From an uncultured Thermoleophilia bacterium (GTDB lineage: Bacteria; Actinomycetota; Thermoleophilia; UBA2241), in NCBI GenBank assembly GCA_903862845.1, contig CAIOZS010000068.1, positions 1-51,788 on the forward strand: a stretch of 51,788 bases of DNA, written 5' to 3'. Made by a program: the position numbers and the translations under genes. Each line of letters begins with the position of its first letter. The stretch's first letter is position 1. The notes under the pieces were generated by a model. The model saw only the letters and a list, made by a program, of their open reading frames with translations. It was not told the DNA's origin and made no database searches. Below, piece by piece: positions 7,294-42,495 of the stretch.

Positions 7294-8408
7294 ATCGTCT
7301 CCAGCGCGGCAAGCAGCTCGCCGGCGACGAGTGGCGGCGTGAGCGCCCGCCGGTAGAGTGCGAGCGCGGCGGCGCCGAGCCGGCGGCGCTCGTCGAGGAC
7401 GAGCAGGCGCCGCAGCGCCGCCGCCAGGGCGGCGCCGTCGGCGGCCGGCACCAGAAGCGCGTCCTCGCCGTTGTGCAGTAGCTCACGGGAGCCCCGCGTG
7501 CCGGCCGTCACCACCGGGCGGCCGCAAGCCAGCGCTTCGTACACCTTGTTCGGGACTACCCGCGCGGCCTTGTCGGAACCGCCGAAGACGCCGAGGCAGA
7601 TGTCGGCGGCCAGAGTGTGAGCGCGGAGCGCGGCCGGCGACACCGCGCCGAGCCACTCCACGTTTGTGAGGCCGCGACGCGCGATCCTGGCGCGAAGCGC
7701 GGCCGAGAGCTGCCCTTCGCCGGCGAGCACGAAGCGGAAAGGCTCCGCGCGGAGCAGCTCCGCCGCCGCGAGGACGGCGTCGACGCCGTGGAGCGGGCTC
7801 CACTTGCCGTACTGAAACACGGTGAGCGGCTTGCCGCGCTCGAGGGCGCGAGCGCCGCCGGTGGCCTGCGGCGCCGGGAGCGCCCCCACAGGCACCACGG
7901 CGAGCTTGCGACGAGGGAGCGCGAACTCGGCTTCGTAGTAGGACGCGTGCGCCCACGTGTCGGCGAGCACGAGGTCGGGAAAGGCGAAGGCGGCGCCGTC
8001 CACGGCGCGCGCCGCCGCCGCTTTCCAGCCGCCGGCTGCCACCAGGCCACGGTCGCCGGCAAAGGTGTCCCAGAGCGACACCAGTGGGTCGAACACCAGC
8101 CGCGCGTGCCGCAGGGCGGCCAGCAGGCGGCCGAACGGCACCAGAAAGTGCCCCGGGTAGCCGACCACAACCGCGTCGCACTCGAGGCGGCGACGGTGCT
8201 GCGCGAGCAGCCGGACATGAGCCTCGACGACCCCGGCCGCCAGCCGCGCGGCGCCGCGGGGAGTCGCCATCTGCGCGGCCGTGAGCGCCGGCAGCGGCGC
8301 CCGGAGCTCGAGCACCGAGACGCCCAGCTCTCGCAGTCCGGCGATGAGCACGGCGTTGCGCGGATAGACGGGGTCGTACGTGCCGAAGTAGGCGACGGTG
8401 CGGGTCAC
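7290..8408 (-). CDS. Glycosyltransferase family 4
   Basis: C-terminal LGVFGGSDKAARVVPNKVYEALACGRPVVTAGTRGSRELL; overlaps neighbour by 4 nt. Confidence 0.85.
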   Translation of the reverse strand: MTRTVAYFGTYDPVYPRNAVLIAGLRELGVSVLELRAPLPALTAAQMATPRGAARLAAGVVEAHVRLLAQHRRRLECDAVVVGYPGHFLVPFGRLLAALRHARLVFDPLVSLWDTFAGDRGLVAAGGWKAAAARAVDGAAFAFPDLVLADTWAHASYYEAEFALPRRKLAVVPVGALPAPQATGGARALERGKPLTVFQYGKWSPLHGVDAVLAAAELLRAEPFRFVLAGEGQLSAALRARIARRGLTNVEWLGAVSPAALRAHTLAADICLGVFGGSDKAARVVPNKVYEALACGRPVVTAGTRGSRELLHNGEDALLVPAADGAALAAALRRLLVLDERRRLGAAALALYRRALTPPLVAGELLAALETM

Positions 8409-9454
8409 GGCTTGTCGGCGGCCCCCGGGACGAGAGCCGCGGCGACCGCGGCGCCTCCCGTGGTGCCGGCCTCGCGAGCGGCCGGAGGCGCGGGCGCGCC
8501 GGCGCCCGCCCCACCGGCCCCCACCATGAGCGCCACCTGGGCGTCGTCGGGCCCGCCGCGAGCCCGCGAGTTGGCGATGAGCTCGCCGATCAAGCCCAGC
8601 GAGAGCAGCTGCACGCCCACGATGATGAGCAGCGCGCCCAGCAACAGGAGCGGGCGCTGCCCAATGGGGCTGCCAAAAGCGAGCTTGTCGATGGTGAGAT
8701 ACAGCTCGACCAGCACGCCGATGAGGATCAGCAGGGTGCCGATACCTCCGAAGAGATGCTGCGGACGGTGCTGGTAGCGACCGAGAAAGAGCACCGTCAT
8801 GAGGTCGAGATAGCCGCGCAAGTAGCGCTGCCAGCCGTACTTGGACTTGCCGGCGGTGCGCCGCCTGTGACCGACCGGCATCTCGGTGACGCGAAAGCCG
8901 GCCTGCGCGGCCACGACGGGGATGTAGCGGTGCTGCTCTCCGTAGATGTAGATGGTCTCGACCACGTCGCGGCGGTAGGCCTTGAGGCCGCAGTTGAAGT
9001 CGTGCAGAGGGATCCCCGAGGTGCGCCGCACGGTCCAGTTGAAGAAGCGCGAGGGAATGGTCTTGTTGAGGGGATCCTGGCGGCTCTGCTTCCAGCCCGA
9101 GACCAGGTCGTAGCCCTCGTCCAGGCGCGCGAGAAGACCGGGGATCTCGGCGGGATCGTCCTGGCGGTCACCGTCGAGCGTGACCACGTAGTCGCCGCGC
9201 ACGGCCTCGAAGCCGTGCGCGAGCGCCGCCGCCTTGCCGAAGTTGCGCCGCAGCTTGACGACGCGCACGTCGTCACGGGCGGCGGCGAGCCGCTCCATGG
9301 CGGCGAACGAGCCGTCGGTGGACCCGTCGTCGACGAAGACGATCTCGAAGGCCACGCCGGCAGCCACGAGCGCCGCGTCGATCTCCGCGACGAGCGGCTC
9401 GATGCTGTCGGCCTCGTTGAAGACCGGTATGACGAGTGAGGTCAGGGCAGGCAT
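8405..9454 (-). CDS. Glycosyltransferase family 2 (polyprenyl-phosphate hexose synthase-like, C-terminal TMs)
   Basis: SLVIPVFNEADSIEPLVAEI..EIVFVDDGSTDGSF..GDYVVTLDGDRQDDPAEI plus two C-terminal TM helices. Confidence 0.9.
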   Translation of the reverse strand: MPALTSLVIPVFNEADSIEPLVAEIDAALVAAGVAFEIVFVDDGSTDGSFAAMERLAAARDDVRVVKLRRNFGKAAALAHGFEAVRGDYVVTLDGDRQDDPAEIPGLLARLDEGYDLVSGWKQSRQDPLNKTIPSRFFNWTVRRTSGIPLHDFNCGLKAYRRDVVETIYIYGEQHRYIPVVAAQAGFRVTEMPVGHRRRTAGKSKYGWQRYLRGYLDLMTVLFLGRYQHRPQHLFGGIGTLLILIGVLVELYLTIDKLAFGSPIGQRPLLLLGALLIIVGVQLLSLGLIGELIANSRARGGPDDAQVALMVGAGGAGAGAPAPPAAREAGTTGGAAVAAALVPGAADKP

Positions 9455-9487
9455 GTCGGCTCACAAGGATACAACGTCACGGCGTAC

Positions 9488-9525
9488 GGCGATGGGCCGG
9501 GGCGCACGCGCCCCGGCCCATCGCC
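9488..9525. terminator. GC-rich hairpin (17-bp perfect stem, CACG loop)
   Basis: ggcgatgggccggggcg-cacg-cgccccggcccatcgcc, just past the stop of the 9551-9817 minus-strand gene. Confidence 0.6.
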
Positions 9526-9550
9526 CCAGAGAAACGTCTTTTCGCCGGGC

Positions 9551-9817
9551 TCACTCGTCCAGGCCCTCGTCATCTCTGATCACGCGCACGGTGCTTCCGT
9601 CGGCGCTCAACGCGCGGCCGTGAACGCCCCTGCGTGCGCCGCGACCGTCGCCGGTGAACGCGACGCGGGCGCGCTGTCCTACCACCTGTACGTCGTCGCT
9701 CACGCTGCTGTTGAGCAGAGCCGCCAGACGCGGGTTGTTGACCTTGAGCTTGACGCCGAAGAACTCGACGCTGCTGGGCCCATCGCTTGTCTCGTCGACC
9801 GCCATCATGTTCACCAT
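9551..9817 (-). CDS. Small conserved-looking hypothetical protein
   Basis: MVNMMAVDETSDGPSSVEFFGVKLKVNNPRLAALLNSSVSDDVQVVGQRARV.. followed by terminator hairpin. Confidence 0.5.
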   Translation of the reverse strand: MVNMMAVDETSDGPSSVEFFGVKLKVNNPRLAALLNSSVSDDVQVVGQRARVAFTGDGRGARRGVHGRALSADGSTVRVIRDDEGLDE

Positions 9818-10029
9818 GCCTTCGGTATCGGCGCGCAGGGCTCCCCCACGTAGGCCCGGTAGACATATGTACCTATCGCGTGAGCGTGAACGGGGGTCGC
9901 GCGGCTCGCGTCCCCTGAGCAGCGTAGACACGCCGTCACGCATCCGTTCCCACGGTGGCCGTTAGAACAGGGGCTTGGTACGATGAAGCACAGCCTCCCG
10001 CACCGGCGCGGGCGAGTTGGAGGATGAGG

Positions 10030-11874
10030 ATGAGCAGGAAGATCTGGCTGGCGCTCGCGCTCGCCGTCATCGTGGCAGCCAGCTTCGCCGCGGGCGCCGT
10101 CGCAGCGAAACAGAAGGTGGCGTCGGATCCCCGGCCGAAAACGGTCACCAAAGGCCTCGACTATTTCCACGCCCGCCAGAAGGCCGACGGCGGCTTCGGC
10201 ACCATGTCCGCCACGGCTTGGGTCATCATCGGCGCCGTGGCCAGCGGCGAGCGCATCGGCTCCACTGCATGGACGCTCGGCGGCAATAACCCCTTCAGCT
10301 ACCTGCAGGCGCACAGCCACGAGGACGCCGCCACCGGCCCCGACGTAGACAACGCGCCCGTCTACTACGCGCAGGCGATCATGTCCTACGTCGCGGCCGA
10401 CCGCGCCGAGCGCGTGTTCGTCGCCGGGACTCCGCGCATCGACCTTCTGGCCAAGCTCTACGGCTACCAGGACCTCGTCGACGGCTCGCCCACCAAGGGC
10501 AGCTTCTCGCCGTCCACGTCGACGCGCACGTTCCAGGCCGTCCACACCACCGCGTGGGCCGTTCTCGCCATGCAGGCTCTCGGCGAGAACGCGAAGGATC
10601 GTTTCGCGTTCGCCGAGCAGTGGCTCGCCACCCAGCAGCTTGCGGACGGCGGCTTCCCAGCGCAGCCCGGTGATCCCTCCAACTGCGAGGACACGGCCGT
10701 GGCGATCCAGGCTCTTGTGCTCGCGGCCGACGGCACCCTCGACCCGGCGATCGTCCCCGCAGCCCGTCAGTACCTCAAGACCAACCAGCGCGCCGACGGC
10801 GGCTTCCCGCACACGCCCGGCACGGGCACGGATGCGTGGGCCACGGCGGCCGCCGTCCAGGCCATCCTCGCCATGGGCGAGCAGCCCGACGGCGCCGACT
10901 GGATGATCGGCGCGAGCACGCCCAAGTCCGCGCTCGCCACCCTCCAGTTGAAGACCGGCGCCTACGTCAAGAAGCGGGGCGACGCCACGGGGCCGCTGCC
11001 GACCACCAGCTGGGCCCTGGCGGCGCTGCGCGACAAGCCCTTCACGACGTTCCCCAAGACGCGCCCCACGGCCCTCAAGGCATTTGTGTTTCGTCCCCAG
11101 ATGAAGTCGGTTTGGCCGAAGGAGGGCACCCGGTACACCAGCACCCACTCGGTGCTCATCCACGCCACGTACACGGACGGCGCCAAAGGGACAGGCGTCG
11201 ACCCCAAGGCTTGCCGCGTCTACGTCGACGACGCGAACAAGACGAAGCCGGCCGACATCGGGCGCTTCGGCCTCCACCTGCAGCTTACGAACGTCTCCGA
11301 CGGTGAGCACACCTACAGGCTCGAGATCATTGACCACGCCGGCAACGTCAAGAGGGTGGAGCGTCGGTTCACGGTAGCCACGCCGGCGCCGACGCCCACG
11401 CCGGTGCCCACGTACACGCCCACGCCGAACCCCACCTACATACCGCCCGCCACGATCTACCCCACGCCCAAGCCGACGTCCACGCCGACGCCGTTCACCA
11501 CGCTGACGCCCACCGCCTACCCCTCGAGCGAGACGACGGTCACTCCAGGGCCGTATCAGACGGTCACCCCGACGCCGTCGCAGAGCGACGGCTACCCCGT
11601 GACCGGAGTGCCGGTCGCGTCACCGAGCCCGTCCGGCAGCCCGGGCGCCGCAAGCGGCGGCGACTCGGGTAGTGCCGCAGGCTTCCTCGGTGGTACTCTC
11701 CTCGCCATGCTGCCCATCGGCGCCGCGATCTCGTACCTAGCCTTGCGCCGCCGCGAGCAGGCGCTCAGCGCCGCCGGCGAGGGCAAGGTGCTGAGTGGCG
11801 GAGGCAGCGCCTGGGAGCGCCTCAAAGGCGTCCTCGGCAGGTCCAAGGACATCGTGAAACCGGCCGGGAGGTAA
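10030..11874 (+). CDS. Secreted prenyltransferase/squalene-oxidase-repeat (alpha/alpha-barrel) protein with Ig-like domain, Pro/Thr linker and C-terminal TM
   Basis: Signal peptide; repeats DYFHARQKADGGFGTMSATAW.., WLATQQLADGGFPAQPGDPSNCEDTAVAIQAL, YLKTNQRADGGFPHTPGTGTDAWATAAAVQAI; Ig-like LTNVSDGEHTYRLEIIDHAGNVKRVERRFTV; TPTPxP linker; terminal TM. Confidence 0.85.
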   Translation: MSRKIWLALALAVIVAASFAAGAVAAKQKVASDPRPKTVTKGLDYFHARQKADGGFGTMSATAWVIIGAVASGERIGSTAWTLGGNNPFSYLQAHSHEDAATGPDVDNAPVYYAQAIMSYVAADRAERVFVAGTPRIDLLAKLYGYQDLVDGSPTKGSFSPSTSTRTFQAVHTTAWAVLAMQALGENAKDRFAFAEQWLATQQLADGGFPAQPGDPSNCEDTAVAIQALVLAADGTLDPAIVPAARQYLKTNQRADGGFPHTPGTGTDAWATAAAVQAILAMGEQPDGADWMIGASTPKSALATLQLKTGAYVKKRGDATGPLPTTSWALAALRDKPFTTFPKTRPTALKAFVFRPQMKSVWPKEGTRYTSTHSVLIHATYTDGAKGTGVDPKACRVYVDDANKTKPADIGRFGLHLQLTNVSDGEHTYRLEIIDHAGNVKRVERRFTVATPAPTPTPVPTYTPTPNPTYIPPATIYPTPKPTSTPTPFTTLTPTAYPSSETTVTPGPYQTVTPTPSQSDGYPVTGVPVASPSPSGSPGAASGGDSGSAAGFLGGTLLAMLPIGAAISYLALRRREQALSAAGEGKVLSGGGSAWERLKGVLGRSKDIVKPAGR

Positions 11875-11881
11875 GCACAGC

Positions 11882-12931
11882 GTGAACGGGCTTCAGCAGG
11901 TGATCTACGATGCTTCTCGCGTGCTCCTTTGGCCCGTGCTCATCGCGGCGCTCGCCTGCCTCGTCTGGGTGCTCATCGAGTTTGGCTTCTTCCTCTACGA
12001 GCTGTACCTGCGGTTCCGGTACAGGGACCTCGACGCGCTCGAGGCGCGCACCCTGCGTGCGCGGAGGGCGTTTCAGGAGGGCAAGCCGCGCACCGCGTAC
12101 CGCTATCTCCAGGAGAACAACTACTCGATCGTCGTCGCACGCTTCCTGTTCGACCTCATTCGCAACTACCAGACCGAGCGCCTGGCGGCCAAGCCTCTCA
12201 AGCTGCTGCAGGAGTACGAGTTCTTCACGGTGAAGCGCCTTGAGCGCACGCGCATCCTCGTGCGCGTGGGCCCGATGCTCGGCCTCATGGGCACGCTCAT
12301 CCCGCTGTCGCCGGCGCTGATCGGCCTGGCGAGCGGCAACACCACCCAGCTCGCCGACAACCTCACCACGGCTTTCTCGGTCACCGTCATCGGCCTGCTC
12401 ATCGGCGGCATCGCCTTCGTCATCAGCATCGTCCGCGACCGCATGTACTCGCAGGACATCTCCGACATGGAGTACCTGCTCGAGCTGCTCGAAGGCGGCA
12501 GCGAACGCCTTCAGTCGGGCCGCCGGCGCAACAGGAAGGGCATCTGGGACGCCGACCCGGTCGTCGAGTACGAGGCCGCCGCGGAAGACATGGAGAAGAC
12601 GGCGGTGATCCCCGTGCTGCTCGAAACTCCCCGGGAGGCACTCATCCCGTTCGCCGCCGGCAATGGCGACGAGGCGCCCGGCGCCGCTGGGCCGGCCGTG
12701 GTGTCGTCGCCCGAGCCGGCACTGCCGCTGGTCGACCCGCTGGCCGCCGACGCCAAGCCGATGGTCGTGGTGCCCGCTCCGGCGGCCGGCGAAGCGCCGC
12801 CGCTCACCTTCGACGATCCCGCCATGGACTGGCGCGGCGACGAGGACCCCTTCGCGGACCTCGGGCCCGTGGATCCCAGGCCGCCGGCCGGGAGCGCGCC
12901 CGGCGCCGGCGCACCGCCCGCACGTTACTGA
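11882..12931 (+). CDS. MotA/TolQ/ExbB proton-channel family protein with long Ala/Pro-rich cytoplasmic tail
   Basis: LVRVGPMLGLMGTLIPLSPALIGLASGNTTQLADNLTTAFSVTVIGLLIGGIAFVISIVRDR; GTG start 7 nt after upstream stop. Confidence 0.85.
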   Translation: MNGLQQVIYDASRVLLWPVLIAALACLVWVLIEFGFFLYELYLRFRYRDLDALEARTLRARRAFQEGKPRTAYRYLQENNYSIVVARFLFDLIRNYQTERLAAKPLKLLQEYEFFTVKRLERTRILVRVGPMLGLMGTLIPLSPALIGLASGNTTQLADNLTTAFSVTVIGLLIGGIAFVISIVRDRMYSQDISDMEYLLELLEGGSERLQSGRRRNRKGIWDADPVVEYEAAAEDMEKTAVIPVLLETPREALIPFAAGNGDEAPGAAGPAVVSSPEPALPLVDPLAADAKPMVVVPAPAAGEAPPLTFDDPAMDWRGDEDPFADLGPVDPRPPAGSAPGAGAPPARY

Positions 12932-12938
12932 GGCCGCC

Positions 12939-13547
12939 ATGCCGGCGTCCGACGACCACTCCACCATCAAGAACCTCGGGACCGTCTACGAACCCCGCGG
13001 CGAGGGTCTGCGCTACATGCGACGTCGCCGCATCGGCACGGCCGATCGCAACGGCGACCCGCTCGACGGCATCGTCAATCTGTTCTATGTAGCGGTTGTC
13101 CTGGCCGTCGGGTTCCTGGTCGCGGCGCTCTCGGCGGCCGGCGTGAGCGGCCTCCTGACTCACCAGAACATGACCATCGTCACGAATCCCGGCACGCCGC
13201 AGATGCAGGTCATCGTGAAGGAGGGCGACCAGATCGTGAAGCTCGACACGGCCAACGGCGCCCAGGTCCAGGGGCTTGGCACGCTCGTCGGCTCCTTCTA
13301 CAAGCTCGCCGACGGCACCGTGGTCTACGTGCCGGCAGGGTCGCTGCCGCCGGCCAACGCGACGCCGGTCCCGGGGGCGTCGCCCACGCCCGGCGCGACC
13401 ACGACGCCGGCGCCGACCACAACCGACTACCCCACCACGAACCCCTACGCGACGCCGACGCCGCTGCCCACGGCACCGCCGACCACTCAACCGACGCCGG
13501 GTGTGACGCTCACGCCCGGCTCCTTGACGCCGCTCAGCGGCGGGTGA
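12939..13547 (+). CDS. DUF2149-like single-TM protein with Pro/Thr-rich C-terminus
   Basis: RRRRIGTADRNGDPLDGIVNLFYVAVVLAVGFLVAALSAAG..GTLVGSFYKLADGTVVYVPAG; coupled to ExbB-like gene. Confidence 0.7.
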   Translation: MPASDDHSTIKNLGTVYEPRGEGLRYMRRRRIGTADRNGDPLDGIVNLFYVAVVLAVGFLVAALSAAGVSGLLTHQNMTIVTNPGTPQMQVIVKEGDQIVKLDTANGAQVQGLGTLVGSFYKLADGTVVYVPAGSLPPANATPVPGASPTPGATTTPAPTTTDYPTTNPYATPTPLPTAPPTTQPTPGVTLTPGSLTPLSGG

Positions 13548-42265: not shown

Positions 42266-42383
42266 GGCTGCCCGGCGAATGGGCTCCAATTGCCCCGGAT
42301 GGACTCCCCCGAGCGGCCCGACGTTGCGGCGCGCGCGAGGCGGTGCTACCCTGCGGACAACCAAGGACGCCCGGCAGATGGCC

Positions 42384-42495
42384 GCGTGAGAGTCCGCGAC
42401 GCTTCGGCGTCGACGGACGCCGAAGGGGCAAGGTGGGCACCGGACGTGCCGCCGAAACTCTCAGGCAACCGGAACGCGGCCGGACGGGCCCCTGA
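42384..42495 (+). ncRNA. Glycine riboswitch (apparently single aptamer)
   Basis: GTGAGAGTCCG..CGCCGAAGGGGCAAG..CCGAAACTCTCAGGCAACCGGAACGCGGCCGGACGGG matches conserved aptamer segments (CCGAAGGnGCAA, AAnCTCTCAGGCAA). Confidence 0.9.

Follow-up and report, generated by a model that had tools for sequence, protein, structure and literature searches.

We analysed a 51,788-nt stretch of DNA from an uncultured soil or sediment actinobacterium of the class Thermoleophilia (contig CAIOZS010000068.1; the whole stretch is called the window hereafter) and focused on three genes in tandem, which encode a secreted alpha/alpha-toroid protein, an ExbB-like channel and a DUF2149 protein. Gene context makes it moderately probable that this trio represents the downstream part of an ancestral Thermoleophilia cobalamin uptake operon, in which an ExbB-DUF2149 stator would act on a surface client serving an ATP-driven importer. 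The genes lie on the + strand at 10030-11874 (toroid protein), 11882-12931 (ExbB-like protein) and 12939-13547 (DUF2149 protein) with plausible ribosome-binding sites, and both gaps between them are 7 nt (11875-11881 and 12932-12938). This tight packing had been described in a first interpretation made from the letters alone (the sequence-only reading), and the coordinates of the open reading frames (ORFs) and the Pfam families bear it out. For the toroid gene, the start at 10030 is the best one, the longest ORF opening at 9955. The toroid-exbB-DUF2149 order is found throughout the family wherever contigs reach, one family member (G010) being devoid of DUF2149, and such consistent conservation shows that the tandem is not due to chance.

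The relatives reveal what the trio was part of. In L041 (genome G009), L045 (G011), L088 (G008) and L047 (G042, from another family), the trio ends a longer operon that runs in the order cobalamin riboswitch, two secreted DUF4430 proteins, EcfT, double EcfA, EcfS, toroid, ExbB and DUF2149. The upstream genes encode a DUF4430 protein, a second, lipoprotein-like DUF4430 protein (PF14478, 4e-12), a CbiQ-type EcfT (PF02361, 1.9e-20 in L088), a double ATP-binding cassette (ABC) ATPase and a membrane protein, EcfS, matching the DUF6580/ECF-ribofla_trS/FolT-family models of S-components of energy-coupling factor (ECF) transporters. An RF00174 riboswitch of 75-90 bits stands directly upstream of the first gene in these four loci and likewise heads two related operons without ExbB and DUF2149 (L089 and L090), that is, all six complete operons first examined. 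Using an EcfS profile, a homolog was found in 170 of the 299 genomes of the class, the window's genus having none. When genomes with EcfS were sampled across families, 30 of 35 carried RF00174 a few kb ahead of the gene, in the same orientation and on one contig with it. Three of the other five are cut by contig ends (G013, G058 and G023, the riboswitch of G023 being found on another contig that also carries an EcfT fragment) and two remain (G291 and G201). Furthermore, the EcfS-linked riboswitch is the sole cobalamin riboswitch in many of these genomes. This survey is a much stronger link to cobalamin than reasoning confined to the window could provide, and with the ECF importer and the DUF4430 proteins of the relatives it makes cobalamin, the ligand conjectured in the sequence-only reading, very likely that of the ancestral system. 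The nearby kamDE genes, to which that reading had appealed, are not required for the argument.

Vertebrate B12 binders, the transcobalamins, have DUF4430 as their C-terminal domain (PMC4350170), and for this reason the DUF4430 proteins and the toroid together look, by analogy, like a split transcobalamin-like corrinoid binder. The S-layer homology domains borne by one DUF4430 protein (L047) fit a surface location. As to the window's toroid protein, a candidate client or corrinoid presenter, it matches SQHop_cyclase_N (3.7e-10, over the curated cut-off) and Prenyltrans (7.1e-9). The AlphaFold2 model comprises an N-terminal helix (residues 2-31), an alpha-helical toroid (37-333, predicted local distance difference test (pLDDT) score mostly 75-97), a beta domain (357-449), a disordered stalk (462-545) and a C-terminal transmembrane (TM) helix (550-582). 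The beta domain is present in this model and its match to the Ig-like Big_13 family is weak (0.0053, below the cut-off). Foldseek retrieved alpha/alpha toroids, the best structural matches being terpene cyclases and prenyltransferases, including squalene-hopene and drimenyl-diphosphate cyclases. The genome holds no other full-length copy, a cyclase-like gene on contig C236 matching part of the profile only. The Pro/Thr stalks that had been described as matching are both present in the window (51% Pro+Thr in residues 452-545 of the toroid protein and 56% in residues 136-202 of the DUF2149 protein), but the match holds at the genus level only, more distant relatives having Ser/Gly-rich stalks or short tails.

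Several other lineages encode EcfS and the toroid as one polypeptide (L090, at 7916-9952, and L158-L164), and these fusions stand in cobalamin-riboswitch operons. Because the two are fused there, the toroid can be argued to act directly with EcfS. None of the eight fusion loci has ExbB or DUF2149 nearby, whereas ExbB follows the separate, stalked membrane toroid in six of seven cases, the exception being G010 (the G032/L157 contig breaks off within ExbB). The difference gives a Fisher p of 0.0014 with loci counted as independent despite their kinship, and it suggests a role for ExbB-DUF2149 where toroid and transporter lack a covalent link.

The window's lineage has kept the trio without the rest of the operon. 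A small conserved protein without assigned function is encoded on the - strand at 9554-9817, pointing away from the locus in many Thermoleophilia, and makes a handy synteny marker of the left border. By tblastn, its homolog borders the riboswitch on the outer side in L041, L045 and L088, and directly adjoins the toroid gene in the window and in L035-L039; the riboswitch, both DUF4430 genes, EcfT, EcfAA and EcfS are thus missing from exactly this interval. Neither DUF4430 nor EcfS was found genome-wide in six of the seven genus members (G000, which is the window genome, G001, G002, G004, G005 and G006), and G003, from the same genus, has a DUF4430/EcfT/EcfAA block on another contig. These are draft genomes (that of the window, 4.38 Mb in 352 contigs and 94% complete, groups with metagenome-assembled Thermoleophilia), in which a single absence is weak and the agreement of six is the argument. 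Since the full operon is widely distributed, we infer that the upstream half was lost, not gained, in the window's genus. The ratios of nonsynonymous to synonymous substitution rates (dN/dS) among genus members, 0.07-0.18 for the ExbB core, 0.07-0.25 for the DUF2149 core and 0.17-0.49 for the toroid domain, indicate that the trio is under purifying selection, and close genus members keep the 7-nt spacing and intact ORFs.

A complete B12 capture system, as pictured in the sequence-only reading, is accordingly not what the window encodes. An ECF partner elsewhere in the genome was considered and rejected, the two EcfT found belonging to a ribosomal-locus EcfA1A2T and to a CbiM-type metal importer. 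Besides the latter, the genome keeps cobU/cobT-like genes under a cobalamin riboswitch and one FecCD-type importer. Its two cobalamin riboswitches (8492-8673 and 13631-13753 of L034, contig C238) precede an alcohol-dehydrogenase-like/TrpD-like gene pair and the cobU/cobT-like genes. Its only clear FecCD/BtuC-type importer (4587-8599 of L190, contig C270), beside a Dph6-like ATP-pyrophosphatase gene, is a possible alternative corrinoid or iron route.

Whether the trio is energised depends on its two other proteins. The ExbB/TolQ/MotA-like channel, which ends in a long cytoplasmic Pro/Ala tail, passes the gathering score of PF01618 (4e-8, 33.5 bits vs 22.9). Alignment to Escherichia coli ExbB shows that the equivalents of Thr148 and Thr181 are conserved and that of Glu176 is not, this position being non-acidic across the family. 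The DUF2149 protein, single-copy in the genome, likewise passes that of PF09919 (6.1e-21, 75.0 bits vs 27.1); its AlphaFold2 model, with one TM helix (41-67) followed by short strands, scores too low (pLDDT 63.9) to support a search by fold. The DUF2149 motif DPLDG(V/L)VN(L/M)FD(V/L)..VLAV.FL.AAL corresponds to the ExbD TM segment by hhalign, and its conserved Asp aligns with the proton-coupling Asp of ExbD. In ExbD, this residue is required for proton coupling. The Asp occurs in 37 of 42 aligned DUF2149 sequences, including 29 of 29 loci outside the window's family (among them L047 and the planctomycete L074), and is replaced by Thr in L036 and L046, by Val in L037 and by Tyr in L039 and the window (Tyr50), substitutions that seem to have arisen independently on several occasions. 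As the TM Asp is a Tyr and the Glu176 equivalent is absent, proton coupling, plausible for the family, is doubtful for the window copy, and so is the energised system that had been predicted.

We also surveyed the pair in 41 named loci, many of them near relatives so that counts are not independent. Wherever the sequence reaches, exbB immediately precedes DUF2149 and, apart from toroid clients, the gene before exbB usually encodes a secreted PKD-type protein. In ten loci (L048, L051, L053, L054, L058, L061-L064 and L073) the pair lies within an operon for a TupA-like binding protein, a permease and an ATPase (TupB model, 5.7e-40, and TupA, 2.2e-15, neither reaching its equivalog cut-off; L054 is truncated at the binding-protein end). 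In these loci, from Solirubrobacteraceae, Nocardioides and others, the pair sits between the TupA-like and PKD client genes and those of the permease and ATPase, this TupABC-like importer being a tungstate/molybdate-type ABC system. In four loci (L065, L068, L069 and L071) it stands beside haem-type HtaA, FecCD and ATPase genes, often divergently. The link to cobN-like genes drawn in the sequence-only reading is also seen: the pair adjoins CobN in the planctomycete L074 (PF02514, 1.5e-292), and a CobN-like protein (1640-1810 aa), a 233-aa membrane protein, ExbB and DUF2149 are encoded in a row in L182-L184, from other actinobacterial clades, a row that resembles hmuSTUV. The large downstream gene of L052 was rejected as CobN, its product being an FtsK/SpoIIIE-type ATPase. 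Those other clades also include L186-L189, and in L188 the pair lies between 703-aa and 2744-aa ORFs, close to FecCD genes. The pair belongs, as had been supposed, with uptake systems. Because it accompanies unrelated importers outside the toroid clade, ExbB-DUF2149 looks like a general importer accessory.

Five known systems come closest to the trio. HmuU-HmuV of the Bacteroidota hmu haem operon is an ExbB-like and DUF2149 pair (PMC10434189, PMC10100974), and there too exbB directly precedes DUF2149 in an operon for tetrapyrrole uptake, but the hosts are diderm and have a TonB-dependent receptor and the CobN-like HmuS; the trio has a monoderm host group, a toroid client and, as parent, a riboswitch-led ECF importer operon. 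ECF-CbrT is a characterised ECF-type cobalamin transporter (PMC5997447) and as such resembles the proposed parent system, from which it differs in that the relatives' EcfS matches the models given above and has a double EcfA, DUF4430 proteins and a toroid as partners, the window genome being devoid of EcfS. Vertebrate transcobalamin and intrinsic factor combine an alpha-toroid and a DUF4430 beta domain, the two halves of a corrinoid binder, which in the relatives are separate genes. With ExbB-ExbD and TolQ-TolR the trio shares the ExbB homology and an ExbD-like TM motif (F-D-V..VL...F..AA), but DUF2149 shows no recognisable ExbD periplasmic domain, the window's TM Asp is lost and there is no outer-membrane target. 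The SCO2321 family (NF053823), for which we know of no established function, also consists of toroid membrane proteins, but the window's protein reaches 70.7 bits (1e-19) vs the 300-bit family cut-off.

We propose that the DUF4430 proteins and the membrane-anchored toroid would jointly form the extracytoplasmic split binder and hand the corrinoid ligand to EcfS. ExbB-DUF2149 would be an ExbB-ExbD-like stator whose client, the toroid in this case, shares its membrane; by acting on this client, the pair may make it take on or release its ligand, or ferry the ligand across the wall. The Thermoleophilia host group is monoderm, and the pair would thus fulfil a TonB-like function with no outer membrane present. 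In the window organism, the trio, its dedicated ECF partner lost, probably serves another corrinoid route such as the one FecCD/BtuC-type importer kept; alternatively, its ligand may have changed, possibly without proton coupling. Both a mechanism driven by proton-motive force and the current ligand of the window trio are what we infer.

Several observations weigh against this proposal. The window locus has no cobalamin riboswitch at either the gathering or a relaxed threshold, and its genome, searched throughout, has no DUF4430 protein and no matching EcfS. The sequence-only reading had likened the toroid to the fold of vertebrate B12 binders. Its place beside cobalamin functions stands through the relatives' operons, yet transcobalamin is not among the 50 toroid fold matches listed and the domain is without specific similarity to it; the transcobalamin link comes from DUF4430, not from the toroid, and the DUF4430 profile itself matched no transcobalamin among solved structures at E <= 1. 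DUF2149 had been taken for an ExbD-type partner, and here the TM motif holds, but hhalign of DUF2149 with E. coli ExbD covers 31 columns of the TM segment only (probability 25.8), a profile search of the PDB found no ExbD and the protein is without a recognisable ExbD periplasmic domain, so that homology to ExbD/TolR extending to that domain was not established. Four of the seven genus members have a replacement of the TM Asp, and so has G008 (Thr); since G008 has the ECF operon, loss of the residue does not track that of the importer. Finally, G010 has an unfused toroid and ECF genes yet no DUF2149.

Two other explanations compete with this proposal. The pair could be a passive scaffold or an ion-independent complex here, the idea of a proton-driven stator being wrong for the window's branch; the TM Asp replacements in an otherwise conserved protein and the family-wide absence of the Glu176 equivalent favour this, but the Asp persists in all loci outside the family and in every ECF-bearing member except one, and the two ExbB Thr residues are conserved, so that we regard it as rather unlikely. 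The trio could also have been repurposed, after the loss of the ECF half, for another, non-cobalamin ligand or for an envelope task such as wall or surface mechanics. This we hold unlikely: the missing DUF4430, EcfS and riboswitch, the repeated loss of the Asp, the faster evolution of the toroid than of ExbB and the variety of clients that the pair evidently accepts speak for it, but the client gene is still an orthologous toroid whose architecture has not changed, the trio has gained no genes and synteny is unaltered save for the missing block.

Two further explanations have little in their favour. Loss of the partner genes and of the Asp might indicate a decaying relic without current function, which intact ORFs, the 7-nt spacing kept in close genus members and low dN/dS across divergent ones render very improbable. 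That the toroid protein is a terpene or squalene cyclase-like enzyme, with the trio producing or altering a lipid, as the high rank of squalene-hopene and drimenyl-diphosphate cyclases in Pfam and Foldseek could suggest, is scarcely credible: most members have a degenerate form of the catalytic acid motif DXDD (the window has NCED, others have different residues that do not fit either), and the protein is secreted, membrane-anchored and, in relatives, fused to EcfS in a riboswitch-controlled B12 operon. An enzymatic role was rejected on account of the degenerate motif.

Around the trio itself, no CobN, receptor or HmuY gene adjoins, the neighbours being ParB/ParA-like and glycosyltransferase-like genes. 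Elsewhere in the window, a glycine riboswitch (RF00504, 58.9 bits) lies at 42375-42486 on the + strand.

Stators of the ExbB/ExbD type are understood as carrying inner-membrane energy to the outer membrane. Incomplete Ton parts in monoderm Actinobacteria were judged "likely non-functional" in a 2025 survey (PMC12204202), and another publication regards HmuV/DUF2149 as diagnostic of haem transport (PMC10100974). Judged by gene context, the loci described here speak against both statements, because the pairs sit in or beside at least four kinds of importers in Actinobacteriota, one of them under a cobalamin riboswitch and with an apparent bacterial split transcobalamin. This raises the question of why an ATP-driven importer would need a second motor. 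We tentatively suggest that, in monoderm bacteria, ExbB-DUF2149 stators may be TonB-like motors mechanically driving a membrane-anchored surface client, which would load tightly held trace ligands (corrinoids via the split transcobalamin, haem or oxyanions) onto otherwise complete ATP-driven importers.

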